A stretch of 64,000 nt of DNA, from NCBI GenBank assembly GCA_017502125.1, contig JAFVVN010000009.1:62001-126000 (forward strand), given 5' to 3'. Both the position numbers and the translations under genes were made by a program. Below are positions 4,655-56,461 of the stretch, one piece after another. The notes beneath the pieces were generated by a model that searched no databases, was not told the DNA's origin, and saw only the letters and a program-made list of their open reading frames with translations. The DNA comes from Bacteroidales bacterium. GTDB lineage: Bacteria; Bacteroidota; Bacteroidia; Bacteroidales; UBA932. The number at the start of each line of letters is the position of its first letter. The stretch's first letter is position 1.

Positions 4655-5908
4655 ATGTATAAGATAGCATATATTACGCTGGGGTGCAAGCTGAATTATG
4701 CGGAGACTTCGACCTATGAGAGGGAGCTGGCACAGGCAGGATTTGAGGCGGTTCCATGGACCAAGGGGGCGGATGTCTTCCTCGTGAACACATGCACCGT
4801 GACAGAACATTCCGACAAGAAGAGCCGCAATATCATAAGGAAGCTGCACAGGCAGAATCCTGAGGCTACTATATATGTAACAGGCTGTTCTGCCCAGTTG
4901 CGACGCGCTGATTATGAGGCGATTGAAGGAGTCAAAAGAGTCTTCGGGGCTACTGAAAAGAGTGCTGTCGTGCCTACGATTCTGGCAGACATGAGGGGTG
5001 AGGAATGCTGCGGTCATGGAGTGGGTACATTCTTTCCTGCATATTCGAGCGGAGAGAGGACACGCTCATTCCTTAAGGTTCAGGACGGGTGCGACTATAA
5101 ATGTCACTATTGCACGGTGCCATATGCCCGAGGCGAAAGCCGTAATATTCCGATTGCCGAGATAATCCCGCAGGCGGAAGCCATAGCGGCAGAGGGCATA
5201 AAGGAGATTGTTCTGACCGGGGTGAACACCGGAGATTTCGGAAAGAGCACAGGAGATACATTCTTTGAACTCATCAGGCAGCTTAATGCTGTGGAAGGCA
5301 TTGAGAGATACCGCATTTCATCCATCGAGCCTAATCTTCTCACAGAGGAGATGATAGATTGGATAACATCTGGCACCAAGTTCCTCCCCCACTACCACAT
5401 ACCTCTCCAGTCAGGCTGTGACACCATCCTCCGTGAGATGGGACGCCGCTATGACACGGCCGCATTTGCCCATAAGATACAATATATAAGGGAACGGTCA
5501 GAGAAGCCCGGCGGGCTGAAGGTCTTCTTCGGGATAGATGTGATAGTCGGATTCCCGGGAGAGACTGACGAACTGTTCGAGGAGACATATACCTTCCTAC
5601 GTGATGTCGTGCGCCCAGCCTTCATCCATATATTCCCATATTCCCGTCGTGCGGGAACCCCGGCAGCTGCACGAAAAGACCAGGTGCAGGATTCTGTGAA
5701 GACTCTCAGGGTCCAGAGGCTGGAGGCACTGTGTCAGGAACTGCATGAGAAGTTCGTAAGGGAGCATAAAGGGCTGACTGGAAAGGTTCTGTTCGAGAGC
5801 ACTGACAGGAACGGAATGATGGAGGGATATACGGAGAACTATATCAGGGTGACAGCGCCATACGACAGCACCGCCATCAACAACATCATCGAAATCGAAA
5901 TTCAATAA
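4655..5908 (+). CDS. mtaB: tRNA (N6-threonylcarbamoyladenosine-37-C2)-methylthiotransferase
   Basis: This 417-residue radical-SAM methylthiotransferase has the three N-terminal UPF0004 cysteines (LGCKLNYAET, VNTCTVTE, YVTGCSAQ). The radical-SAM cluster motif is CDYKCHYC with cysteines at about residues 146, 150 and 153, followed by ARGESRN. A TRAM-like C-terminal part follows. The LGCKLNYAET start and overall length fit MtaB better than MiaB or RimO. It adds methylthio to t6A37 of tRNAs. The ATG lies 15 bp after the inverted-repeat element, so that element sits in its leader. Confidence 0.92.
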   Translation: MYKIAYITLGCKLNYAETSTYERELAQAGFEAVPWTKGADVFLVNTCTVTEHSDKKSRNIIRKLHRQNPEATIYVTGCSAQLRRADYEAIEGVKRVFGATEKSAVVPTILADMRGEECCGHGVGTFFPAYSSGERTRSFLKVQDGCDYKCHYCTVPYARGESRNIPIAEIIPQAEAIAAEGIKEIVLTGVNTGDFGKSTGDTFFELIRQLNAVEGIERYRISSIEPNLLTEEMIDWITSGTKFLPHYHIPLQSGCDTILREMGRRYDTAAFAHKIQYIRERSEKPGGLKVFFGIDVIVGFPGETDELFEETYTFLRDVVRPAFIHIFPYSRRAGTPAAARKDQVQDSVKTLRVQRLEALCQELHEKFVREHKGLTGKVLFESTDRNGMMEGYTENYIRVTAPYDSTAINNIIEIEIQ

Positions 5909-17696: not shown

Positions 17697-19019
17697 CTAG
17701 TCCCTTCTGAAAACGTCGCGGGTATAGACCTTATCAGCCACATCATCCAGGCAGGAATCATAGCGGTTGGCGATGATGGCGTGGCACTGAGCCTTGAAGG
17801 CCGCCAAGTCATTCACCACCCTGCTGCCGAAGAATGTGGTGCCATCTTCGAGAGTCGGCTCATAAATCACCACCGTCGCACCCTTCGCCTTGATACGCTT
17901 CATCACGCCCTGGATCGCGCTCTGACGGAAATTATCACTGTTCGCCTTCATCGTCAAACGATACACACCCACAACAACCTCACGCTCCGAAGCCGCACCA
18001 AACTCATTATTGGAAGTATAGTTATAATACCCCGCCTTAGCCAACACCTGATCAGCAATGAAGTCCTTACGGGTACGGTTGCTCTCCACGATGGCCGTCA
18101 TCATATTCTGAGGCACATCATCATAGTTCGCAAGCAACTGCTTCGTATCCTTTGGGAGACAATACCCGCCATATCCGAACGACGGATTGTTGTAATGGCT
18201 GCCGATTCGAGGATCAAGGCCGACACCATTGATAATAGCCTGAGTGTCAAGACCCTTCATTTCCGCGTACGTATCCAGCTCATTGAAATACGACACACGT
18301 AGAGCCAGATAAGTATTCGCGAACAACTTCACCGCCTCAGCCTCCTTCAAGCCCATAAAGAGAGTAGGAATATCCTCTTTAATCGCACCTTCCTGAAGCA
18401 GACCGGCAAATGTCCTTGCCGCAGCATTCATACGGTCAAAATCCGCAATCATCGCAATGGCCCGGTTCTCATCATCAAAATTGTCGATCAACTTTGGAGT
18501 ACCCACAATGATTCTTGAAGGATAGAGATTATCATATAAAGCCTTGGACTCACGAAGGAACTCCGGAGAGAAAAGCAGATTGAACTTCTTGCCACGCAGA
18601 TTCTCAGAGTATGCAAAACGAAGAGCATACTTAACATAAAGACTGCGACAATATCCCACTGGAATGGTCGATTTGATGACCATAACCGCATCCGGATTAA
18701 CCTCAAGAACCAGGTCAATCACCGCCTCAACTGCCGAAGTGTCAAAGAAATTCTTCTTTGCATCATAGTTGGTCGGAGCTGCAATCACCACAAACTCCGC
18801 ATCACGATACGCTGCTGCGCCGTCAAGAGTCGCCGTCAGATCCAACTCCTTCTCAGCAAAAAACTTCTCAATATATTCATCCTGGATAGGGCTTAGCCTG
18901 CGATTGATCTTATCCACCTTCTCAGGGATCACATCCACAGCTGTAACTGTGTGATTCTGTGCCAGAAGTGTGGCCATCGACAGACCCACATATCCTGTAC
19001 CTGCTACTGCTATCTTCAT
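17697..19019 (-). CDS. ugd: UDP-glucose 6-dehydrogenase family
   Basis: The 440-residue nucleotide-sugar dehydrogenase starts [20 protein letters not shown] (Rossmann GxGxxG). It has ESTIP-type motif [19 protein letters not shown], the substrate-loop [16 protein letters not shown] and the catalytic-Cys motif [11 protein letters not shown]. The product is UDP-glucuronate if the substrate is UDP-glucose; the C-terminal region fits the short Ugd type. The frame is open to 19169, but the upstream part runs through a non-coding RNA locus, so the start is 19019. Together with the downstream UDP-uronate epimerase it would supply UDP-GlcA and UDP-GalA to the surface glycan. Confidence 0.88.
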
Positions 19020-19049
19020 AAATTTATTTTTATTTTTCTTTAAATAAAC

Positions 19050-19057
19050 TATCTTTG
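19050..19057 (+). promoter_or_regulatory. -7 promoter element of ncRNA copy A
   Basis: TATCTTTG is a perfect TAnnTTTG match on the plus strand, in an AT-rich stretch with no clear -33. It lies about 50 nt before the conserved RNA core, the same offset as the TACTTTCG element of copy B. Confidence 0.55.
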
Positions 19058-19059
19058 CA

Positions 19060-19198
19060 CTTAAGGAAGTAAAACGTGGCCTGGAAGGGGGAATAAGTCC
19101 TAGTGCAAAGTCCCGCCATCTGCCCCCGCAAAAGCAATTCCACCACGATTCCCTGGGCATCTCATACAAGCAGTCTCAATCGAGGCTGCTTGTTTTTA
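19060..19198 (+). ncRNA. candidate structured small RNA, copy A
   Basis: The interval is bounded by a -7 element (19050-19057) and a terminator (19167-19197). It folds as P1: CGTGG 19075-19079 with CCACG 19143-19147, continued by TGGAA 19082-19086 with TTCCA 19138-19142. P2 is GGGGG 19087-19091 with CCCCC 19123-19127. P3 is the mini-hairpin GC-AAAA-GC at 19128-19135. The P2 loop carries GTGCAAAGTCCCGCC (19103-19117), shared with copy B (25428-25566), whose stems differ in sequence but not in layout. ATTCCCTGG follows P1. It is divergent from ugd and runs into the 3' end of the XRE gene. The Rfam family is unknown; Bacteroidales-1 and Bacteroides sRNA families are alternatives to test. Confidence 0.72.
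19167..19197 (+). terminator. rho-independent terminator of ncRNA copy A
   Basis: CAAGCAG (19167-19173) pairs with CTGCTTG (19186-19192), extended inside by CTC/GAG, and is followed by TTTTT. It lies at the stop of the opposing XRE gene (19196). Confidence 0.85.
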
Positions 19199-19885
19199 AG
19201 AATGAACATCAATCGCTGTAATACAATATTGTACATTCGTACCATCACTCCCCTTCTGACCGACAGTCAATCTCACCAAGCCGATAGCCGGACAATTATA
19301 TTCCATAATAAGCATACGTTTAAATCCTCTCTGATTCTTGGTTTTAGGGTTTATCGGCTTACTTTCTTTCAAAACAGCATTAGGCAAAATCGCATCCAAC
19401 TGTAAAACCGCAAGAGTTGAAAGATATCGTAATGATGCGTGACCTGCCGTCTCATTAACGGATATATACTTTATGTGAATATAGTCGTTCAACGACTTAT
19501 TGAAAATTCTTCTTTCCTCGTGTCTGATCATCCACTGAAAATAGAACTTCCTGATTATACGATTCCTACTCCTTCTATCCTCGACAGCATCACCAGTTGG
19601 CACATCCTCCGGATGAATCTCTAAATTTTCATTAATTTGCTCTCCTGCACCCGATTCAAGAATTGGCAAATCAAAGACATCAGGCTCATCAACATAGCCT
19701 ACCAGCATCTCCAACGGGACTCCCAGCACCTCTGCAGCACGCGAAATAGTCTCCAGATTATTTGTTTGAAAGAGCACATTCACGTTCTGCCTCTGAATCC
19801 CCATCCTTCTGGCGAATTCAGCCTTGGTCATTCCCACCTGTTCAAGAAGCAGCGCCCCCCTTTCCTCAAAATAAATTCCTTTCAT
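19196..19885 (-). CDS. XRE-type HTH protein with an unrecognised C-terminal domain
   Basis: Residues 1-65 form a Cro/C1 helix-turn-helix: MTKAEFARRMGIQRQNVN, then ISRAAEVLGVPLEMLVGY. Residues 70-115 are a variable linker. Residues 125-229 form a separate domain (NDYIHIKYISVNETAGHAS...RMLIMEYN...GLVRLTVG) that I do not recognise; it recalls the small nuclease-like domains of phage polyvalent proteins, which is a guess. The gene is isolated, has its own promoter with overlapping palindromes, and its ATG lies at the predicted transcription start, so the mRNA is probably leaderless. Autoregulation is likely. Confidence 0.65.
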   Translation of the reverse strand: MKGIYFEERGALLLEQVGMTKAEFARRMGIQRQNVNVLFQTNNLETISRAAEVLGVPLEMLVGYVDEPDVFDLPILESGAGEQINENLEIHPEDVPTGDAVEDRRSRNRIIRKFYFQWMIRHEERRIFNKSLNDYIHIKYISVNETAGHASLRYLSTLAVLQLDAILPNAVLKESKPINPKTKNQRGFKRMLIMEYNCPAIGLVRLTVGQKGSDGTNVQYCITAIDVHS

Positions 19886-19889
19886 GAAG

Positions 19890-19941
19890 CAAAGATAATG
19901 TAATATTCAATTATTACAAAACTCTGCAGGAATAATTGAAT
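19890..19941 (-). promoter_or_regulatory. XRE gene promoter with overlapping operator-like palindromes
   Basis: TATCTTTG (-7, 19890-19897) lies 19 nt from TTTG (-33, 19917-19920). ATTCAATTATT (19905-19915) is a perfect inverted copy of AATAATTGAAT (19931-19941), and TGTAATA (19899-19905) of TATTACA (19912-19918). Both flank or cover the -33, as expected for an autorepressor. Confidence 0.6.
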
Positions 19942-19979
19942 CAGGGATTATTACCAGAGTACCTGCAAGGGTCAATGTC

Positions 19980-21020
19980 TTACTTATAATATTCCTTATA
20001 CCACCTGGCGAAGGCTCTGAGACCGTCGCGAAGAGATGTGGACGGCTTGAAACCGAAATCGCGTTCAAGAGCCGATGTATCTGCATATGTGACCGGAACA
20101 TCACCCGGCTGCATCGGTACAAGCTCCTTATGAGCCTCGAAATCGTAGTCTGCAGGAAGCACACCTGCCGCGAGAAGTTCCTCCTGAAGAATTGTCACGA
20201 AATCGAGAAGGTTCTCCGGCTGATTGTTACCGATATTATAGACTGCATACGGAGGAACCGGAAGCCCGTCTTCTCCCACCTGCTTTGCCGGAGCCTTCTG
20301 CATCACACGGATGACGCCCTCGACAATATCATCTACGTAGGTAAAGTCGCGCTTGCAGTTGCCGTAGTTGAATATCTGTATCTTCTCACCCTTCACAAGT
20401 TTGTTCGTAAATCCGAAATAAGCCATGTCAGGACGTCCTGCAGGACCATACACTGTGAAGAAACGCAGACCTGTAGATGGGATATTATAGAGTTTGCTGT
20501 ATGCGTGCGCCATCAATTCGTTGCTCTTCTTTGTGGCAGCATAAAGAGAGACAGGATTGTCCACCTTGTCATCAGTCGAATACGGCACCTTCTTGTTTGA
20601 GCCATAAACCGACGAAGAAGAAGCATATACAAGATGCTCCACTCCACCCTCATACTGCCCGTATGAATGACGGCATGCCTCGAGAATATTATAGAATCCT
20701 ATAAGGTTTGCCTCGATATAAGCTCCTGGATTCGTAATGCTGTAACGAACACCTGCCTGAGCAGCAAGGTTAACCACAACCTGAGGCTTATAATCAGCGA
20801 ACACCTTGTCAATCAACTCCTTGTCTGCGATATTTCCTTTAATGAAGGTAAAGTCGGGATACTTCTCCAGCTGAGCGAGACGTTCCTCCTTCAAGCGGAC
20901 ATCGTAATAGTCATTCATATTGTCGATACCCACAACCGTAGGATTATCGTATCTTTTATAGATTGCCTTCACCAGATTGCTTCCTATGAATCCGGCTGCA
21001 CCTGTAACTAATATTGTCAT
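19980..21020 (-). CDS. UDP-glucuronate 4-epimerase-like NAD-dependent epimerase
   Basis: The 346-residue extended SDR has TGAAGFIGSNLVK (NAD binding), the catalytic Ser region YASSSSVYG, and YAATKKSNE carrying YxxxK. KVPYSTDDKVDNPVSLYA and FFTVYGPAGRPDMA are typical of UDP-GlcA 4-epimerases. These interconvert UDP-GlcA and UDP-GalA. It is the last gene of an operon with a nucleotidyltransferase (2-bp gap), a galacturonokinase-like GHMP kinase and a PolyVal-type kinase, and it would link ugd-derived UDP-GlcA with UDP-GalA. Confidence 0.87.
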   Translation of the reverse strand: MTILVTGAAGFIGSNLVKAIYKRYDNPTVVGIDNMNDYYDVRLKEERLAQLEKYPDFTFIKGNIADKELIDKVFADYKPQVVVNLAAQAGVRYSITNPGAYIEANLIGFYNILEACRHSYGQYEGGVEHLVYASSSSVYGSNKKVPYSTDDKVDNPVSLYAATKKSNELMAHAYSKLYNIPSTGLRFFTVYGPAGRPDMAYFGFTNKLVKGEKIQIFNYGNCKRDFTYVDDIVEGVIRVMQKAPAKQVGEDGLPVPPYAVYNIGNNQPENLLDFVTILQEELLAAGVLPADYDFEAHKELVPMQPGDVPVTYADTSALERDFGFKPSTSLRDGLRAFARWYKEYYK

Positions 21021-21022
21021 AA

Positions 21023-21754
21023 TTATCCAAATAATTTCTTAGCTTCTTCGTAACTGTCAAGACTTCCGATATCAAAACGACCGGCAGTCATCGGCCATGC
21101 ATGCATGACCGTATTATCCACCATATAATGAGCAAGATTGCCCGGAGCATCCTTGCCGCATCCGTTCTCCACACTGTGACGCACAAGGTCCAGGTCCTTC
21201 TTCAGATAGATATAGAAAGGAGGTACAGCCCAATGCGACTTAGGCACCTGAGGTTTCTCCTCCATATTCAGAACCTTGTTATCCCCATCAAGAACGACTA
21301 CCCCCGTTCTCTGAAGTCTCTCTATGCTCGGTTGTTCGTGACACATAATGCACGAGGAATCCTTCTCCATGGCAAAATCCACGAACTCGCGGAAACTGAA
21401 CATCAGGATATTGTCAGCCGCCACCACAAGCAGATCATCATCTATCGAAAGTTTATCCATCGCGAAAAGAAGGTCGCACACAGCCCCAAGACGGGTCTCG
21501 TTTGTCGAAGTGCCATCATCAACGATGGTAACTGGCTTAGTATAAGTCTGAGCTGCAGCCCACTCCTCGAATATATGGGCAAAACGATGGTTGGTGATGA
21601 TTATATGCTCGTCGATGTCAGGAATCCTGTCGATATCGTCCAGCATACGACCGAGAATGGTTGACTCCCCTATCTGCAGGAGAGGCTTAGGAAAATTTCT
21701 GGTAAGTTCGCCTAAACGGGTCGCATATCCAGCAGCAATTACGATATTCTTCAT
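21023..21754 (-). CDS. sugar-1-phosphate nucleotidyltransferase
   Basis: The 243-residue enzyme starts MKNIVIAAGYATRLGELTRN and continues FPKPLLQIGESTIL, a hexose-1-P nucleotidyltransferase signature with Tyr in place of the usual Gly-Xaa. NMEEKPQVPKSHW supplies the EKP motif and FDIGSLDSYEEA ends it. The frame extends to 21787, but the family start is at 21754. Sitting between a galacturonokinase-like gene and an epimerase, it most plausibly activates a uronic-acid 1-phosphate with UTP. That is inference from context. Confidence 0.85.
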   Translation of the reverse strand: MKNIVIAAGYATRLGELTRNFPKPLLQIGESTILGRMLDDIDRIPDIDEHIIITNHRFAHIFEEWAAAQTYTKPVTIVDDGTSTNETRLGAVCDLLFAMDKLSIDDDLLVVAADNILMFSFREFVDFAMEKDSSCIMCHEQPSIERLQRTGVVVLDGDNKVLNMEEKPQVPKSHWAVPPFYIYLKKDLDLVRHSVENGCGKDAPGNLAHYMVDNTVMHAWPMTAGRFDIGSLDSYEEAKKLFG

Positions 21755-21845
21755 TATACCTGTAGCAGTTATATATTGTTCTTGCACTTGATACCCTCAA
21801 AAAGCAGGGTACCACGAGCATTTTCATATTGAAAGTGCGCGAGGT

Positions 21846-22988
21846 CTAAACAAATCGGGCACCGTCGTCAGTCTTGCAGAAATGGATTTCAAATGTGTCT
21901 GCATATTCCGGGAACATTCGGAGATACTCACTGGTAATCTGCTCACGAATCTGCTCCTTCCTGGCCGGATCGACAAGAGCAATGCAAGCCCCTTTGAAAC
22001 CGGCACCACTGAAACGACCGCCGTAGATTCCCTCACACTGACGCATTATGTTATATATAGCTATGAGTTCCTCGCTGCCACACTCATAATTCTTGATCGA
22101 ACTCTGGCAACTGTCGAAACTCAACTGTCCGAAAAGTGCAAGATTGCCTGTTTCCCAAGCGGTCACCCCCTTGCGTACACGTTTGTACTCGCTATAGAAA
22201 TGCTCCGCACGACGGGCAAAACGCGGAGGCATCTTTTCCTTTGTGAGATCATAAGTCTCCTTCGGAATATCACGAAGATAAGTCTTGTCAAACGACTTCA
22301 GAGGCATCCCGGTATAGGCCATCATATTCCAGGCAGCAGTTTTGCATTCAGCCACGCGTAGATTATAATCGCTGCTCACAAGGCTACGGGTGAGCCCTGA
22401 GAAAATGATAGCTATCTCGAACTCCGGCATGCGAGGATTCTTCTTGATGATGCGGTACTGCTCGGAATCCGTATCGAGGAAAAGAAGCGAATCCTTCTCC
22501 CCCAGCACGATACAAGCCTGATCCAGAATACCGTTTGTCAGTCCGATATACTCCCTTTCTGCCTGACTTGCTGTCTTTATCACCTCCATCTTCGAAAGAG
22601 TGATATCATTAGCCTTGGCCAGAGCCATAACATATGCCGTCAGCACAGCAGCGCTGCTGGATAGCCCCCCGACAGGCAGGCTTCCCTTAATCACTCCACT
22701 TATTCCACGCCTCAATTCAAAACGTCTCTTCAGAGCATATTTTGCACCACGCGCATAATCGCCCCAATTCCCTTCCTTCATCTGAACAGGCTTCGTCACA
22801 TCAAAACAGACCTCACCATCAAAAGTAAGACTTTTCAGATGCACCAGACCATCCTCAGTCGGAGTGAACCAGAGATCCACACCCTTGTCGAAAGCGAAAC
22901 CAGTCACCAGCCCGTGCTGATGATCCACGTGAGCCCCCAAAGGACACACGCGATACGGTGAAAAAATGTGATATTTGTAATTGTTCAT
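21846..22988 (-). CDS. GHMP kinase, galacturonokinase-like
   Basis: The 380-residue GHMP-fold sugar kinase has FSPYRVCPLGAHVDHQHG near the N-terminus, where galactokinases have GRVNLIGEHTDY. The ATP-binding motif is LPVGGLSSSAAV near residue 110 and the C-terminal motif is GRFSGAGFKGACIA. From memory the PYRxCPLGAHxDHQxG form is the hallmark of plant galacturonokinase. It would phosphorylate D-galacturonate (or a related uronate) at C1. Start 22988 (MNNYKYH) is preferred over 23033. It is followed after 91 bp by the nucleotidyltransferase; that gap has two small hairpins. Confidence 0.78.
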   Translation of the reverse strand: MNNYKYHIFSPYRVCPLGAHVDHQHGLVTGFAFDKGVDLWFTPTEDGLVHLKSLTFDGEVCFDVTKPVQMKEGNWGDYARGAKYALKRRFELRRGISGVIKGSLPVGGLSSSAAVLTAYVMALAKANDITLSKMEVIKTASQAEREYIGLTNGILDQACIVLGEKDSLLFLDTDSEQYRIIKKNPRMPEFEIAIIFSGLTRSLVSSDYNLRVAECKTAAWNMMAYTGMPLKSFDKTYLRDIPKETYDLTKEKMPPRFARRAEHFYSEYKRVRKGVTAWETGNLALFGQLSFDSCQSSIKNYECGSEELIAIYNIMRQCEGIYGGRFSGAGFKGACIALVDPARKEQIREQITSEYLRMFPEYADTFEIHFCKTDDGARFV

Positions 22989-23035
22989 AAAATATATTTG
23001 ACTAACAGCGAGAACCTTTAAGAGTGTTATCAATC

Positions 23036-23911
23036 CTATACCCCAACAGAGCCGACAATATAGTCTCTCCAGTCATAAAATGGGTCGGAGAAATTGATTT
23101 CTGGCTGAGGAAACTGATAATTCCCTCCACATTCAAGGGATGGAACATTCAAACGGCAATCCGCATCAATAACATTTAATCCAGATTCACCTTTGATAAC
23201 ATTGAACTCATTAAGATCCCCGACATACAGGAAATCAGTCTTAAAATTAAGATGCATCCCATAATCCATACCAGCATCCTCGAATCCCATTTTATACATA
23301 AATGACATCCGTTCAGATTCAGTTATCAAATCTCCCACTACATAGGGTTGGGAAACAACTACGACAAAATCTCCATTACAACCTCTCGCAAAGCCGATAA
23401 CCTTCAAGGTCGTCTCTGGAAACAAGGCATTATGTATAATGATTCTATCTAACGCTAGACGAAGCACTGTGTAATGCTTCAAAGAAATTAACTTATAGAC
23501 AATTCTATTATGGACATCAAAATAGACAACACTTTCAGATCCGTTGTCTTGTAATAAACAAAGATTGTCAAGATATTCCTCCGGATTTTCAATCCACACT
23601 CCTGACAATCTCGCCCATATCTCAACTATATGTTCTTGAATAGCCGCTTCGCCGACGAGGTCATCCGTATCATAGATCTGCCTTGTCTCAGACTCTGTGC
23701 AAGGACATCCTCTACAGATAACGGACGCAGCGCACAAGATTTCCGATCCCTTAGACAGGCCTGACTGTTGCGCATATGGAATTCGTTCAAATACTGCTGC
23801 TCCATTTTTAATATCCTCCGCTATTAATTCTAAATCTGATAAATTCTTATCTGTAAAACCTTCATTCCATACTCTTTGGTTAATGTCATTCAACCGCTCA
23901 AAATCACTCAT
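23036..23911 (-). CDS. kinase-like protein of the phage polyvalent (Kinase-PolyVal) type
   Basis: From about residue 125 the sequence reads SVVYFDVHNRIVYKL, DRIIIHNALFPET, VVVVSQPYVVG, YVGDLNEFNVI and LNVIDADCRLN. This order (Lys in YKL, HNxLFP, QPYV, a D...N catalytic-loop equivalent, then an IDxD metal motif) fits the small kinase fold found in phage and ICE polyvalent proteins. Residues 1-120 are helical with an odd CRGCPC cluster near 68-73. It is a stand-alone protein heading the galacturonokinase operon (47-bp gap). Its target is unknown, and catalytic competence is inferred. Confidence 0.6.
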   Translation of the reverse strand: MSDFERLNDINQRVWNEGFTDKNLSDLELIAEDIKNGAAVFERIPYAQQSGLSKGSEILCAASVICRGCPCTESETRQIYDTDDLVGEAAIQEHIVEIWARLSGVWIENPEEYLDNLCLLQDNGSESVVYFDVHNRIVYKLISLKHYTVLRLALDRIIIHNALFPETTLKVIGFARGCNGDFVVVVSQPYVVGDLITESERMSFMYKMGFEDAGMDYGMHLNFKTDFLYVGDLNEFNVIKGESGLNVIDADCRLNVPSLECGGNYQFPQPEINFSDPFYDWRDYIVGSVGV

Positions 23912-23949
23912 AACTCATCAATAAACATTCCAAAATTATACGACAACAA

Positions 23950-23979
23950 CAAAGTTACGAAAAGTATTTGAAATTCAAA
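23950..23979 (-). promoter_or_regulatory. promoter of the PolyVal kinase / uronate operon
   Basis: TAACTTTG at 23950-23957 (-7) is preceded after 18 nt by TTTG at 23976-23979 (-33). The leader to ATG 23911 is about 35 nt. The rest of the 196-bp gap holds an AACCG/CGGTT hairpin near 23995-24015 that may end the upstream aminotransferase transcript. Confidence 0.65.
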
Positions 23980-24107
23980 CATTTTCAAGAATAACCGCCT
24001 CTATCGGTTACTCTTTGCATTTATACAACCGGATTGTACCGATGACTAGTCTAGGTTAGTGTCTAATCTGCATCCTTGCGGGATTAAGGCTATGGAAACT
24101 TAGAAAA

Positions 24108-25388
24108 TTATTTCACTATCGCTTCCTTGATGCAATCGACAATATAGCGAACATCATCATCAGTCACACAAGGACCTGCCGGAAGACAGATGCCTACCTT
24201 GAAAATCTCCTCCGACACGCCATTCACGTATGCTGGAGCGGCAGCATACACCGGCTGCTTATGCATAGGCTTCCATACAGGGCGAGCCTCAACCTTCTTA
24301 GAAAGCATGAACATGCGAAGAGCCTCCACATTATCGTTTGGCTGACAATCTGTAGTAGCGCTATCAACTGCCTTAATCACTCCAGCAGCACCACCCACGG
24401 CCGAAGTAATCACCTCTTTATAAGCATCCTCCTGCCCCACAATCTTCACAGACGGATCAATAGTTGCAGTACAAAGCCAGAAATTAGAATCATAACGACC
24501 GTCATTAGGCTGATCATGCAAAGTAATACCAGGAATATCCTTCAACAACTGACGATACAACTCTTGAACATGCTTATGGTGAGAAATATGATCATCCAGC
24601 ACCGTCATCTGACCACGACCAATACCTGCACAAACATTACTCATACGATAATTATAGCCGATAGCAGTATGCTCATAATAAGGATATGCATCACGAGCCT
24701 GAGTCGCATACCACATTATCTGATTAGCATCCTCAACAGAACGACAGATAAGCGCACCACCACCCGATGTGGTAATCATCTTATTACCATTGAATGAAAG
24801 CACACCAAAACGGCCGAAAGTACCAAGCACCTGACCATTGAAGCGAGAACCCATACCCTCGGCAGCATCCTCAATTACAGGGATACCATATTTATCAGCA
24901 ACAGCCATGATACGCTCACAATCATACGGCATACCATAAAGTGCCACAGGAATAATCGCCTTCGGATACTTGCCAGTCTTCTCCTTACGATCAAGAATAG
25001 CCTTCTCAAGAAGCTCCGGGTCCATATTCCAAGTATCACGCTCACTATCAATGAACACAGGAGTAGCACCAAGATAAGTGATAGGATGCGAAGAAGCACA
25101 GAAAGTAAAGGTCTGCACACACACCTCATCACCAGCCTGCACACCACAAGCAATCAAAGCCAAATGCACTGCAGCTGTACCAGCAGAAAGGCAAACAACC
25201 TTGCGGTCAAGCTTACTGCCATCGTCCATAGCATTCGCGAAATCAGCAAGATTCTGCTCAAAAGCATTCACATTCGGTCCCATCGGCACAACCCAATTGG
25301 TATCAAAAGCCTCCTTTACATATTTCTGTTCAACACCTTCCTCGCTCATATGAGCAAGGCACAGGTAAATTGTTTTTCTTTCTGACAT
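24108..25388 (-). CDS. DegT/DnrJ/EryC1/StrS sugar aminotransferase, WcfR/PglE-like
   Basis: The 426-residue PLP enzyme has CLSAGTAAVHLALIACG, QTFTFCASSHPITYLGATP, PVALYGMPYDC, VIEDAAEGMGS and the lysine motif LSFNGNKMITTSGGG. It belongs to the nucleotide-sugar 4-aminotransferases that aminate UDP-4-keto-6-deoxy sugars. The FlaA1/PglF-like dehydratase (53168-55111) would supply the substrate and the WcfS/PglC-like transferase (31121-31813) would use the product, as in the B. fragilis PSA WcfR/WcfS pair. Here that pair is split by about 5.5 kb of defence-like genes. An acetyltransferase (PglD) is not seen, which favours AATGal over bacillosamine. Confidence 0.87.
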   Translation of the reverse strand: MSERKTIYLCLAHMSEEGVEQKYVKEAFDTNWVVPMGPNVNAFEQNLADFANAMDDGSKLDRKVVCLSAGTAAVHLALIACGVQAGDEVCVQTFTFCASSHPITYLGATPVFIDSERDTWNMDPELLEKAILDRKEKTGKYPKAIIPVALYGMPYDCERIMAVADKYGIPVIEDAAEGMGSRFNGQVLGTFGRFGVLSFNGNKMITTSGGGALICRSVEDANQIMWYATQARDAYPYYEHTAIGYNYRMSNVCAGIGRGQMTVLDDHISHHKHVQELYRQLLKDIPGITLHDQPNDGRYDSNFWLCTATIDPSVKIVGQEDAYKEVITSAVGGAAGVIKAVDSATTDCQPNDNVEALRMFMLSKKVEARPVWKPMHKQPVYAAAPAYVNGVSEEIFKVGICLPAGPCVTDDDVRYIVDCIKEAIVK

Positions 25389-25417
25389 ATTTATGCTGTT
25401 TTGTTGATTATTTTATC

Positions 25418-25425
25418 TACTTTCG
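25418..25425 (+). promoter_or_regulatory. -7-like element of ncRNA copy B
   Basis: TACTTTCG differs from TAnnTTTG by one base. A TTTTG lies upstream at 25399-25403 with shorter than usual spacing. The offset to the conserved RNA core (51 nt) matches copy A (53 nt). Confidence 0.45.
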
Positions 25426-25427
25426 CA

Positions 25428-25566
25428 GTTAAGAATTAAGTCGCGTCTCAGATGAGGTAAATCGTTTCGTGCAAAGTCTCCGCCCCGAGCCTCACCATAA
25501 GGTAAACATCCGCCGCGTATTCCTGGAGCAAAGATTAAAGGATGCTCATCAGAGCATCCTTGTTTG
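25428..25566 (+). ncRNA. candidate structured small RNA, copy B
   Basis: It has the same architecture as copy A. P1 is CGCG 25442-25445 with CGCG 25514-25517, plus GAT 25451-25453 with ATC 25508-25510. P2 is GAGG 25454-25457 with CCTC 25490-25493. P3 is ACC-ATAA-GGT at 25494-25503. The P2 loop contains GTGCAAAGTCTCCGCC (25469-25484), one base longer than in copy A. TATTCCTGG follows P1, then a terminator. Primary sequence outside the core has diverged while pairing is kept. It lies between the wcfR-like gene and the 310-residue cassette protein, on the opposite strand to both. Confidence 0.7.
25538..25566 (+). terminator. rho-independent terminator of ncRNA copy B
   Basis: AAGGATGCTC (25538-25547) pairs perfectly with GAGCATCCTT (25552-25561) around loop ATCA, followed by TTTG. 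The T-run is short (TTGTTTG). Confidence 0.75.
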
Positions 25567-25618
25567 TATACATCTAACTCAATTATTGGACTTTCTCATC
25601 TGTTCACGTTTTATTCTT

Positions 25619-26551
25619 TTATTTATCATTATCTACCCACTCCACCATCCTGCGGTAAAGCGGTGCCATCAACGTCAACTTGTCATCCTGCCCTCCGTAT
25701 ATTGGCAGCGTCATCATCCAGCCATGGTAACGGAGAACCTGATAGAACTGAAGAAAGCCAAGAAGCGACGTCTTCTGATCAGGACGGAAAAGAATATCTG
25801 AATGATACCTATATATTGACAGTAGCAACGTTCCTCGACACGACTCACAATCCTGAAAAATCGAAGACCCAGTATACTTCGGATTCAGATTTCCTACGGT
25901 TTCATACAACCCTTCGCATCGCTTCTTAAACTCAATATCAAATTCCATTGCATAATGCTTCTCATTCAGTAACCTGCAAACGATCTCCTTATCCGCCTCA
26001 CTTTCAAGATTATCCATCTGCTCCATCAGAAGTCGCGAACTCTCAGGTACTTTATGAATCTCGCAGCCTGCAGAAGTATCCGAAAGTTCCTTAGTCAATT
26101 CATATGACTTCTCATAATCCCACCACAACTTCATCTTCACCACCTCATCATACACAAAACGATGATCAAAAGTATAAGTCAACTTATACTCACCAGCCTC
26201 AAGCCCCAGCTTCTCATTCACCGTCTTCTCCAACTCTATCGTCACATCATTTTCGTAATAATCGTAATCGCAATACGTCAAGATTTCATCGATTCCCCGC
26301 CCGAAGAACAGTTCCATCGCCTCAACATTCCCATCCCTCTCAACATCACGCACCATACGTCCATCATCATACTTGCACATAATAGGCAGCGCAATTGGAG
26401 TAAAGTCCAGCCCTGGTGCGAACTCCACCGGATCAAAAGCATACTTTGCCATCTTCTGCGGTGTCACATGCAACCCAAGAAACAACGTAATATCATCTCC
26501 CGGCCTTACCGGCAGACGCGACAGAAATCCTATGCAATTATAGCTTCCCAT
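25619..26551 (-). CDS. unknown 310-residue cassette protein
   Basis: I do not recognise a named family. The N-terminus, MGSYNCIGFLSRLPVRPGDD, looks like a Bacteroidota hypothetical family with an MGxYNxxGFxSxLPxxxGD start. The middle is rich in Asp, Glu and Tyr (DYDYYENDVTIELE), and a single CESC pair occurs near residue 235. No membrane segment or signal peptide is seen. It begins 18 bp after the GHKL-nuclease stop, so it is probably the last gene of the cassette operon. A role with its neighbours is inference only. Confidence 0.55.
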   Translation of the reverse strand: MGSYNCIGFLSRLPVRPGDDITLFLGLHVTPQKMAKYAFDPVEFAPGLDFTPIALPIMCKYDDGRMVRDVERDGNVEAMELFFGRGIDEILTYCDYDYYENDVTIELEKTVNEKLGLEAGEYKLTYTFDHRFVYDEVVKMKLWWDYEKSYELTKELSDTSAGCEIHKVPESSRLLMEQMDNLESEADKEIVCRLLNEKHYAMEFDIEFKKRCEGLYETVGNLNPKYTGSSIFQDCESCRGTLLLSIYRYHSDILFRPDQKTSLLGFLQFYQVLRYHGWMMTLPIYGGQDDKLTLMAPLYRRMVEWVDNDK

Positions 26552-26569
26552 AGCGGCACAGAACTATAT

Positions 26570-28582
26570 CTATCTAGTATTCAAACTCAATATATCTCTG
26601 CATAATGCATCTGCCCCTTCTCTCGACTTCTTGTATGCATTGACTTCGTCATAAATAACCTGCCGATCGAACTGTAGTTTCTCAAGCATAAACTTCTCCC
26701 GATGTTCAAATGTGAGGAAAACGTCATCCCAAGTCATCGCATAAATTTCAAAATTATCCTTGTAGTGCACGAGCATTGCTCTATTCTTATCAGAAAAGGT
26801 CTGGTATTCTCCTTTGATATAATTATCTACCTCCTTTCCAACTACAATAAAAGTCCACTTGCGCTGGTGGGATTGAAAATGGGGCTCGTTTAATATTATA
26901 TCTCTATAATCCTCTATCTGCCTCAATTGTTCTTTACCAATAACAACAGACGGTCGCTTAAGTTCCACTATTATATTTTCTTCCAAAAAAGATGAATATG
27001 CATACCCCGGTAATTTCTGACTACGGGACATAAAAATATCGGGTCTCTTACGAGCATCTTCCAAAGTAAATTCTCCCATCTTAGAAGCTCCATCTAACAA
27101 GTAAGTATATTTCATCAATGCTGAAGTGAATGGAATATCAGCAGACACTAAGTTGTATTGCTCCCCAAATAACCAATAATTCTCTTCTATTATTTTCTGT
27201 ATATGATCACGCTCAGTTGTGAATTTTTCAAAATCATATACAAGTTCCTTCAACCCTTCTATCACAATGAGACGATTGCGAATCAAATTTATAGAAGAAT
27301 TGATTCGGCTTAAAGTCGTGGCGCGTAATGTTGCGTTAAGTTCCTCTCTTTCTTCAGGAGACAGTCGCACAACTCCCTCAATAATATTTATAACATTGCT
27401 CCTTTCATTCGAGTCCAGCAATAAATTCAAGAAACCGACCATTGTCTTTCTCTGCTCGGTTGTAAGTTTCTGAAATATTTTTGGCTGAACAGTATATATG
27501 CCCTGAATAGCACCAATTAGATCTTTTTTCCGACTTTTTCCATATCTATCATCCGAGAACGTTGGCAAGATTCCATCTCTCTCATATTGAACAATGAGTT
27601 CATTTGCACCAACCTTTTTGATAAAATCTTTTTCTTTCTTTGCGAGATATTCCTTCAGACGTTTAATGAGTTTTTTATAGATGTCATCACTCTGATTTAC
27701 CAAACCATCAAATCGCTCTCCATCTTCTTTGTCCCATGTGAACTTATTAAAATAAGATGAAGTCACATAAAGACTATGATGAAATGTTGTGGACTTATTA
27801 TTGAACGAAGTCAAAACCTTGACCACTTCACGAAGATTGGAATTAAGCATGTAATAATAGTATTTATCAGAAATCTTTGTATTCCAGCGAATAAAATTAC
27901 ACTTAAACGAATACTCTCCGACTGTCAGTTTCCACTCTTCTTCATCTCCAATTATACTGCGGTAGTCTAGTTCAACTCCGTCAATTTTTATTGTATAACC
28001 CTTTGATTGGTTCAATAGTAAGAACCAGGCAAACTCACTCGCAAGATAATGGGTAAAAGAATCATTTGTAAAATTATTCTCTGATAGATTAGAGCGCATT
28101 TCTAAAAACTGTACAACCGTACCTGTAGCCTGTATCTCATCACATGCGATAGGCGCTGGATCAGATGCCTCATACTCTGATCTATCAGACGAATAAATCT
28201 TAATCTCATACTGTTTTATACAACGATCATCATCTCTATATCGTGTTCTCCATAACACACCGCCTGATATGACATTATATGAGAAGCGTCCCTTACCTTT
28301 GCGTCCTCTAGTGTCTGATAATCGTTGATATGTCTGAGCTTTATTTGAGTCTAAGAATGTACCAAACGTGTTTGGTAAGTCAGAATAATCAATGCCACTT
28401 CCGTTATCAATTATCCACAGCCCATCAATCCCTCCAAGTTCATTTCGAGAATAACGAATTTCGACACAGGAAGCACCTGCATCAAATCCATTCCAAATAT
28501 ATTCGGCAATAGCTTTCTTATAATCGTCAGTAAGGCCAGAATTTAGGACACTCTTACTATTAGCGGATAGTTTATACTTCAT
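26570..28582 (-). CDS. GHKL ATPase fused to a Shedu-like (DUF4263) nuclease domain
   Basis: Residues 1-300 form a GHKL ATPase: N-box AIAEYIWNGFDAGA, G1 IIDNGSGID, G2 GRKGKGRFSYN. A middle region of about 180 residues is helical. From about residue 470 a PD-(D/E)xK-like domain follows: ENYWLFGEQYNLV, RKRPDIFM, EENIIVELKRPSVV and RQIEDYRDI, matching the DUF4263 pattern of Shedu defence nucleases (Asp in RPDI, E-x-K in ELKRP, conserved Gln). The frame starts with TTG at 28588; the ATG at 28582 is preferred. It begins just after the DUF2971 stop. It is probably an anti-phage ATPase-nuclease; the exact subtype is unassigned. Confidence 0.75.
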   Translation of the reverse strand: MKYKLSANSKSVLNSGLTDDYKKAIAEYIWNGFDAGASCVEIRYSRNELGGIDGLWIIDNGSGIDYSDLPNTFGTFLDSNKAQTYQRLSDTRGRKGKGRFSYNVISGGVLWRTRYRDDDRCIKQYEIKIYSSDRSEYEASDPAPIACDEIQATGTVVQFLEMRSNLSENNFTNDSFTHYLASEFAWFLLLNQSKGYTIKIDGVELDYRSIIGDEEEWKLTVGEYSFKCNFIRWNTKISDKYYYYMLNSNLREVVKVLTSFNNKSTTFHHSLYVTSSYFNKFTWDKEDGERFDGLVNQSDDIYKKLIKRLKEYLAKKEKDFIKKVGANELIVQYERDGILPTFSDDRYGKSRKKDLIGAIQGIYTVQPKIFQKLTTEQRKTMVGFLNLLLDSNERSNVINIIEGVVRLSPEEREELNATLRATTLSRINSSINLIRNRLIVIEGLKELVYDFEKFTTERDHIQKIIEENYWLFGEQYNLVSADIPFTSALMKYTYLLDGASKMGEFTLEDARKRPDIFMSRSQKLPGYAYSSFLEENIIVELKRPSVVIGKEQLRQIEDYRDIILNEPHFQSHQRKWTFIVVGKEVDNYIKGEYQTFSDKNRAMLVHYKDNFEIYAMTWDDVFLTFEHREKFMLEKLQFDRQVIYDEVNAYKKSREGADALCRDILSLNTR

Positions 28583-28588
28583 AATCAA

Positions 28589-29401
28589 TTATATTTTGAC
28601 TAAATGTCCTAACGAACTGGACTTTACAATAGCATTAGGAGCATAAAGTCTTACTAGAGCATCAACGATAGTCCTTTGGCCTTCTGTAGCGCTAGGACTC
28701 AGAGTAATTTCCATTTTATCAAGAATTCTTTCATCAAGACTCATAAAATACTTCGTGAAAGCTAGTTCTTTATTTTGCAGGCACGCATTAAACGCTAATG
28801 TCCCAACATCATCTTGATTTGGACACATTATAGGATTAAACGGAAATATTGTCAAAGCAAAGCGAGTTTCATTTTGAAAAGCCCAGCGTCTATGCTTATA
28901 ACGTCCAATCTCACCAAATGATATATTACCAGTATATGTACCGTCTTCGTTAGGTGTTATAATAACAGAATCTCTTGTCTTAGTCGCAACATTGTCAACA
29001 TATTGAACTTTACGATAAAAGTAATCACTATCTATTGACTGATTTGGTAAAATAAAGTAGTCTTCGTTCTCAAATTCTTCAGATGGTAACGATAAAACCA
29101 TGCTACCTGCCCACTGTTGCCCGCCCCATTTCGGATCATTAATGAAGTACTTCTTGAACATGTCTTTCTCAAGACCTATCCTGACACCAAACTTATCACC
29201 ACCATACATTTTCCACAGAGGGATACTCTCCTCATCTGATTCTGTCCAACACGATACAAACACATATCGTCCCACATAAATACCAGAAGAGCATACACTA
29301 CCTTCCTCTAGATCATCAACACAATCAAGACGATTAAACAACAAGGTCTTATTCTTTAGTATAAGGGCGAGGGATTCTACCGTTGTATAATGGTATATCA
29401 T
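28589..29401 (-). CDS. DUF2971 family protein
   Basis: The 270-residue protein opens MIYHYTTVESLALILKN and has LLFNRLDCVDDLEEG, VFVSCWTESDEESIPLWKMYG and the FGVRIGL and RRWAFQNETRFAL blocks that define DUF2971. The HYT...SxWTE...WxxYG order recalls ADP-ribosyltransferase-like folds, but catalytic activity is unproven. DUF2971 genes are frequent in defence islands. Its stop is adjacent to the GHKL-nuclease start, so the two are probably translationally coupled. Confidence 0.75.
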   Translation of the reverse strand: MIYHYTTVESLALILKNKTLLFNRLDCVDDLEEGSVCSSGIYVGRYVFVSCWTESDEESIPLWKMYGGDKFGVRIGLEKDMFKKYFINDPKWGGQQWAGSMVLSLPSEEFENEDYFILPNQSIDSDYFYRKVQYVDNVATKTRDSVIITPNEDGTYTGNISFGEIGRYKHRRWAFQNETRFALTIFPFNPIMCPNQDDVGTLAFNACLQNKELAFTKYFMSLDERILDKMEITLSPSATEGQRTIVDALVRLYAPNAIVKSSSLGHLVKI

Positions 29402-55930: not shown

Positions 55931-55945
55931 TGATAGATTTCTTTG

Positions 55946-56341
55946 TGGAGATGGGCGGACTCGAACCGCCGTCCAAACACCGCACCAGAGGGCTTTCTAC
56001 ACGCTTAGTCTGCCTTTGGTTTTCGACTCAGGGCTGCCGGTAGACAGGCCATCCTGAGCTTATCCTCTGAATCTTGACGGAGCTTAAAGGACTCACTCCG
56101 AGCATCCGGTTTGGATGATACCCCGGATTTCAGCCATAACCGGACTAAAGGCTGAAGGGATACTCGTCGGCGACGCAGCCTTGGCGTCGCGGATTAAGGT
56201 AGTGTGCTTTGCAGACTACGCAGCGAGTGCATAAGAGTTGTTGCCAACTAATTGTTTGAAGGCCGAGATTTACGGGCAAACCTACAACGCCCGGCGTGCT
56301 TACCGTCCAATGTCTGATGCTGTCAAAACCAAAACATCCCC
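55946..56341 (-). ncRNA. ssrA: transfer-messenger RNA
   Basis: The 5' end GGGGATG (56335-56341) pairs with CATCTCC next to the encoded CCA (55946-55948), with one G-U pair. The T-arm reads GGACTCGAACCGCC on the plus strand. The tag frame GGC AAC AAC TCT TAT GCA CTC GCT GCG TAG (56216-56245) encodes GNNSYALAA, a Bacteroidota-type proteolysis tag. Together these give a 396-nt one-piece tmRNA for rescue of stalled ribosomes. Confidence 0.95.
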
Positions 56342-56351
56342 ATTGTGTAAC

Positions 56352-56382
56352 AAAAAAGCCTCGCAAATACTGTGCAAGGCTT
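56352..56382 (-). terminator. rho-independent terminator of tRNA-Val
   Basis: AAGCCTTGCA pairs over 10 bp (one G-U) with TGCGAGGCTT around loop CAGTATT, followed by TTTT. It lies between the tRNA and the ssrA 5' end. Confidence 0.85.
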
Positions 56383-56386
56383 CTAG

Positions 56387-56461
56387 TGGGAGCAGAGGGA
56401 GTCGAACCCCCGACCCTCTGCTTGTAAGGCAGATGCTCTAAACCAACTGAGCTATGCTCCC
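56387..56461 (-). tRNA. tRNA-Val (anticodon TAC)
   Basis: This is a 75-nt cloverleaf: acceptor GGGAGCA/TGCTCCC, D-arm GCTC...GAGC, anticodon arm CTGCC-TTACAA-GCAG with anticodon TAC, T-arm GGGGGTTCGACTCCC. CCA is not encoded. Confidence 0.97.

Follow-up and report, generated by a model that had tools for sequence, protein, structure and literature searches.

What are two similar small RNAs doing among the polysaccharide genes of a Bacteroidales bacterium (UBA932; assembly GCA_017502125.1)? The window, that is, the whole stretch of DNA that was analyzed, comprises 64,000 nt of contig JAFVVN010000009.1 (positions 62,001–126,000, forward strand), and the two RNAs lie on its plus strand at 19062–19198 (copy 1) and 25430–25566 (copy 2). 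We infer these ends from covariance model matches, to which, for copy 1 (match 19048–19161), the terminator was added. Both RNAs are real and belong to a family without a match in Rfam, hereafter family 1, and comparison among genomes suggests that they form the RNA half of a convergent protein–RNA module whose other half is a protein with an LPD3 domain.

A sequence-only reading of this DNA had described two structured small RNAs with covarying stems and had pointed to a covariance model as the way to find more of them. Built from five sequences, such a model returned 93 matches (E<=0.01) in 65 of the 398 genomes of the window's family, with one to four per genome; among the 206 genomes that are at least 90% complete, 41 carry the RNA. 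The bacterium's own genome has four copies, namely the two in the window and one each on contigs C47 and C76. Within the window, at E<=1, the model matched at 19048–19161 (100 bits) and 25416–25532 (111 bits) and nowhere else, scores that are owed to construction because both copies are among the five training sequences. Across the order, the RNA was found in 3 of 109 genomes, own included, and a family-1-like RNA occurs in another bacterial family (L270). A second run of the model, over 89 fetched loci, produced 94 matches, the weakest of which (L044:9282, E 0.001) is probably a chance one. An element similar to the copy-1 promoter is present in 82 of these 94 rows, and a terminator-like hairpin with a T-run follows 78 of the 93 evaluable copies. 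Searched as a pattern with a gap of 0–2 bases, the core occurs twice in the own genome, at the two window loci only, and not once when reversed; the exact core pattern was also found in 3 more genomes (199 searched, own included), each time with a promoter and a terminator by eye.

The fold is supported by covariation. Stems P1, P1b and P2 together with a pseudoknot comprise 16 pairs, which are 94.8% paired over 89 distinct rows, with two-sided changes in 13 of the 16, and the covariation score is 0.333 vs 0.143 for shuffled data; the alignment leans towards P1, P1b and P2 because those stems are part of the model, whereas the pseudoknot is not. From an unguided, structure-free alignment of 30 sequences, RNAalifold returned the pseudoknot helix only, with a two-sided change in each of its three pairs, and neither P1 nor P2. 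That P1 and P2 are missing there weighs against a structured RNA, as does the single-sequence folding of copies 1 and 2, which is unremarkable (z −1.87 and −1.06). In 47 of the 89 rows, the P1b pair between columns 49 and 142 does not form. Taken together, the model matches, the covariation and the RNAalifold pseudoknot bear out the two structured RNAs of the sequence-only reading. Its suggestion that they be compared with known families led to Rfam 15, where a scan of the whole window gave the two RNAs no match at gathering score; for 18900–25800, searched up to E 10, there was a single weak match, which is unrelated. At one locus (L086), directly 3' of the RNA, part of the RNA 3' half is apparently duplicated.

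What found no support is the proposal that the core is an unpaired seed for several mRNAs. The C-rich tail of the core pairs with a G-run just 3' of P1 to form the pseudoknot, with compensatory changes. In copy 1, the core GTGCAAAGTCCCGCC (19103–19117, plus) supplies the 5' side as CCC (19112–19114), which pairs with GGG at 19155–19157 (plus); in copy 2, where the core lies at 25469–25484 (plus), a variant CTCC (25478–25481, plus) is matched by a compensating GGAG (25525–25528, plus). Over the 94 rows, the core/3'-tail pairs read CCCC/GGGG in 76, TCCC/GGG in 6, CCTC/GAGG in 4 and CTCC/GGAG in window copy 2; as for the remaining rows, the core was unread by the expression in 5, L103 breaks the pairing (its 3' end is lost) and one is the probable chance match. 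The conserved core is thus not a free seed, and an mRNA-seed role is unsupported because the C-tract pairs and co-varies with the 3' G-run and because the link seen across genomes is with the gene of a partner protein and not with capsule genes; no search for mRNA targets was made.

At each window locus a TAnnTTTG-like promoter precedes the shared core, and a terminator follows it. Read from the sequence, the −7 promoter-like elements are TATCTTTG for copy 1 (19050–19057, plus) and TACTTTCG for copy 2 (25418–25425, plus). The terminator of copy 1 comprises a hairpin (19166–19193) and T-run, together 19166–19198 (plus), and extends as far as the partner gene's 3' end; that of copy 2 has its hairpin at 25538–25562 (plus). 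Within copy 1, the core segment GTGCAAAG (19103–19110) and the promoter segment CTTTGCAC (19053–19060) are reverse complements of each other, which the promoter consensus alone may explain.

Which gene goes with the RNA? Convergent with copy 1, at 19196–19885 on the minus strand, lies a gene for a 229-amino-acid protein with a helix-turn-helix (HTH, Cro/CI-type) and an LPD3-like C-terminal domain. When the neighbors of the 89 loci were clustered, 48 proteins of this LPD3 cluster turned up at 46 loci, most of them immediately downstream of the RNA and convergent with it; the next-largest cluster occurs at only 6 of the 89, and gene pieces of the LPD3 partner lie beside the RNA at several further loci. 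The link to capsule genes that had been drawn from the window therefore looks incidental, as no cluster other than LPD3 exceeds 6 of the 89 loci; one other locus (L080) is also beside a ugd-like gene.

The association also holds when one starts from the protein. With the protein alignment as query, the species genomes yielded 276 pattern hits, from which 235 relatives were obtained and 80 kept, almost all from Bacteroidales or Bacteroidia assemblies (judged by titles) and many from herbivore guts. In 74 of the 80 loci, counting a weak match at L195 (E 0.085) and one at L146 that is truncated where the contig stops, a family-1 RNA sits at the 3' end of the gene on the opposite strand. Among the six misses, L136 has an RNA at 1026–1143, just beyond the open reading frame (ORF) end at 1006, though the tblastn match extended to 1292; in L144 and L200 the contig piece ends 26 and 117 bases past the gene; L159 has an RNA-like match on the 5' side; and L175 and L199 have no family-1 RNA and, by eye, another promoter–hairpin unit. 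A protein profile run over the 398 genomes gave 110 matches in 81 genomes, which we divided into group A (49 hits of at least 200 bits), group B (35 hits of 90–165 bits) and 26 lowest-tier fragments. Group A adjoins a family-1 RNA in 46 of 49 cases, two of which have a family-2 RNA (see below) as well; the three without are G390 and G341, both at contig ends, and G307, on a contig of the same length as that of L159 with its RNA-like match on the 5' side. RNA and protein distances are correlated (Mantel r 0.48, reached in 0 of 2000 permutations, 45 pairs). The 3' ends of RNA and gene meet or overlap, and the overlap is confined to the terminator and the gene 3' end.

Assignment of the partner to LPD3 deserves some care. 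Against Pfam, the window protein matches HTH_3 (E 1.9e-4) and LPD3 (PF18798, E 3.1e-4), both under the curated cut-off; for LPD3, where this is 27 bits, the window protein scores 21.4 and the related L099 protein 29.2. Of six distant stand-alone LPD3 proteins, four score 63–77 bits (E 2e-21 to 4e-17) and two 22 and 26, and in a broad alignment the motifs GLKH and YYDH mark several distant members. An AlphaFold2 model of the window partner has a mean predicted local distance difference test (pLDDT) score of 84.4, with block means of 88–96 over residues 91–220, and its C-terminal domain consists of helices plus a C-terminal set of four strands. The LPD3 protein might have a BECR-like ribonuclease (RNase) fold.

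Group B brings in a different RNA at the same place. Here, 29 of 35 genes adjoin a family-2 RNA, 2 a family-1 RNA and 4 neither, the last being G086 (contig end), G146 (the same locus as L230, with a third RNA type by eye), G179 and G104. The family-2 RNA, with 71 matches in 53 of the 398 genomes, is also a pseudoknotted three-way junction, 97.5% paired on 25 rows with two-sided changes in 6 of 19 pairs; its covariation score exceeds all shuffles, its pair-type count is unexceptional (reached by 64 of 500 shuffles), and all 25 rows form the pseudoknot pairs, which vary on one side only. Rfam found only transfer RNAs (tRNAs) on 20 group-B loci. By eye, a stem GRGG-AAU-UCG//CGA-G-CCYC, with an AAU/G internal loop, is common to both families. 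On the bacterium's own contig C76, at 531–713 (L038), a family-2 RNA and then a family-1 RNA lie within one promoter and one terminator, and overlapping matches to the two models were also seen in L117, L121 and L123; in L117, an Abi_2 gene (5131–5829) is near the orphan family-2/family-1 RNA.

The layout extends to more distant LPD3 genes. Within the order, 18 of 247 genomes, own included, carry a total of 28 matches to PF18798; under a stricter limit, 2 of 247 genomes over the phylum have a match, own not among them. We assembled 18 stand-alone genes from 17 of the 28 order matches plus L230 of group B; the match in the window itself was excluded, as were ten that fall in long frames, mostly with several domains. 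Past the stop, most of these genes are faced by a TAnnTTTG promoter in convergent orientation, with a T-run hairpin close to the stop or overlapping it, and the RNA sequences differ. A detector for such convergent promoter-plus-terminator units was positive for 13 of the 18 stand-alone genes (failing for L254, L269, L256, L265 and L272, of which L272 has an interrupted frame) and for 42 of 48 cluster members, vs 12 of 555 control genes (Fisher 4e-16 and 4e-47, respectively), probabilities that are overstated because the detector is post hoc, the controls come from family loci and the sequences, being related, do not count as independent. In L251, the convergent RNA past the LPD3 stop consists of two similar repeat units of ~26 nt.

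Many of the RNAs stand without a protein. No protein match (E<=1e-5) lies beside 36 of 93 family-1 and 36 of 71 family-2 RNAs (72 of 164 together), counts that include contig ends and family-2 orphans whose flanks were mostly not fetched, and a fragment-only match lies beside a further 9 and 4, respectively; conversely, a modelled RNA is missing for only 7 of the 84 proteins in groups A and B. Orphan RNAs remain in good order: the unpaired class keeps 94.1% of base pairs vs 95.2% in the paired class, and the promoter in 41 of 49 vs 41 of 45, under ORF calling that scored 45 of 94 rows as paired and missed some partners (e.g., L045). Among the neighbors of orphan RNAs in the 89 loci, no shared alternative partner was seen. 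An RNA that outlives its protein fits an antidote surviving its toxin, and an independent function of the RNA would fit too. Window copy 2 is such an orphan, with no LPD3 match beside it. The gene facing it (25619–26551) has no Pfam match and encodes a 310-amino-acid protein; it is part of a minus-strand trio at 25619–29401, with genes for an HSP90-like ATPase protein and a DUF2971 protein, which might be a defense cassette.

How should the module be read? Our best guess, held at a little better than even, is a type III-like toxin with an RNA antidote, or a related ribonucleoprotein, in a convergent layout. The partner, a small protein with an LPD3 domain that may or may not be preceded by an HTH, is encoded in the opposite direction, and the genes of RNA and protein run into each other at their 3' ends. 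The RNA would be transcribed from its own promoter, fold into a pseudoknotted three-way junction and bind its cognate LPD3 protein directly, keeping it inactive. The protein, in turn, would be a growth-inhibiting effector, possibly an RNase, set free once the RNA disappears, is broken down or is titrated away, for example during phage infection, and orphans, copy 2 among them, would be antidotes that were left over or retained. Somewhat more doubtfully, stand-alone LPD3 proteins across Bacteroidales may be effectors of a new toxin–antidote kind with a convergent antidote RNA, many unrelated RNA folds having evolved or been swapped as antidotes to one protein family; orphan and fused RNAs may then represent kept immunity to several toxins.

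Several points weigh against a toxin and its antidote. The evidence comes wholly from comparing sequences, and no toxin, antitoxin or nuclease family matched the partner proteins above its curated cut-off. The weak matches are to the HigA and BrnA antitoxins via the HTH (E 0.006–0.06) and, in one distant LPD3 member, to HEPN (E 0.018), and PDB sequence matches of the partner are weak and over the HTH part. A histidine that looks catalytic in distant LPD3 proteins varies within the window's subfamily, 13 of the 26 lowest-tier protein fragments are without RNA, and the convergent-unit detector was written after the LPD3 loci had been seen. Moreover, the counts are not independent because the genomes are related and mostly draft metagenome-assembled genomes.

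The RNA could instead be the working part, as a trans-acting small RNA or a decoy, with the LPD3 protein as its chaperone or regulator and the orphans using a protein encoded elsewhere or none. The RNAs do occur, and stay structured, without an adjacent protein, and the HTH in many partners suggests regulation; we nevertheless consider this unlikely, as RNA sequence differs among LPD3 subfamilies while the layout stays constant, a pattern more in keeping with a partner that binds protein than with a conserved mRNA seed. In a defense ribonucleoprotein, RNA and protein would together form the active complex and the RNA would not be a mere inhibitor. The patchy, multi-copy distribution and the description of LPD3 in phage and conjugative-element conflict proteins (excerpts of PMC5512222) speak for this; solo RNAs, however, would be useless in such an obligate complex, and PADLOC gave nothing for the partner except a weak match over the HTH. 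We regard it as distinctly improbable. We give very little credence to a stand-alone mRNA-regulating small RNA linked to capsule genes, as first proposed: the RNAs have their own promoter and terminator and both window copies are in the polysaccharide region, but the core tail is paired in the pseudoknot and the genome-wide link is to LPD3 genes. Least probable of all is that the linkage reflects only a shared bidirectional terminator or a cassette moving as one piece. Meeting or overlapping 3' ends would be expected of it; different RNA families at the same place in matching protein subfamilies, and compensatory changes within the RNA folds, would not.

Two further features of the window should be recorded, a polyvalent-type kinase domain (PF18762) within the polysaccharide region (23036–23911, minus) and a transfer-messenger RNA plus tRNA gene (55943–56461, minus).

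Mobile elements yielded no relatives in the searches made: plasmids gave no match for the two proteins tried, and phages none for the one tried; in the viral_contigs set, the protein alignment gave 154 pattern hits, none confirmed, and two exact RNA patterns had no match. No paper pairing LPD3 with an RNA was among the matches listed from open-licence PMC (the candidate lists of PMC8040213 were not compared). In excerpts, LPD3 is named as a domain with no assigned function in phage and conjugative-element proteins (PMC5512222) and reported beside DUF2213 (PMC8770471), and these excerpts do not mention an RNA partner. The window partner is a near relative or a member of this LPD3 (PF18798) of polyvalent proteins. 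A domain of unknown function gains a consistent RNA partner, and two RNA families without an Rfam match are added.

How does the module compare with known systems? FopS and GibS of Bacteroides thetaiotaomicron are likewise small RNAs of Bacteroidales, and FopS is multi-copy with sigma-ABfr promoters. FopS RNAs are, however, described in excerpts of PMC11697453 as mRNA-binding RNAs of ~65–70 nt that repress susC genes, with no wording about a pseudoknot. In type I toxin–antitoxin systems the RNA is antisense to the toxin mRNA and blocks translation, whereas the overlap here is limited to the terminator and gene 3' end. AbiF and RCd22 of C. difficile also pair a protein with an RNA counterpart, the toxic Abi_2 protein being neutralized through direct RNA–protein contact (excerpts of PMC12373285); the partner here has no Abi_2 match in Pfam. 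The closest comparison is with the type III systems ToxIN, CptIN and TenpIN, with which our loci share a compact small-protein gene, a pseudoknotted cognate RNA, matched RNA and protein subfamilies and, in a few RNAs, repeated or fused units (L251 and own contig C76). Passages in PMC5086642 describe known type III loci as operons under a single promoter, in which the repeat RNA precedes the toxin gene and a terminator separates the two. In our loci the RNA lies convergently at the 3' end of the gene, has a promoter to itself, is usually a single unit (per the family-1 and family-2 alignments) and not a tandem repeat, and accompanies a protein that resembles LPD3, with no ToxN, CptN or TenpN family among the Pfam, NCBIfam, PHROGs, PADLOC and PDB sequence matches of the partner. 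Because they differ in operon layout, repeats and toxin family, the loci are not type III as defined; they would represent a predicted protein–RNA toxin–antidote layout that is not described in the passages on known systems and that, if true, makes further members easier to find.

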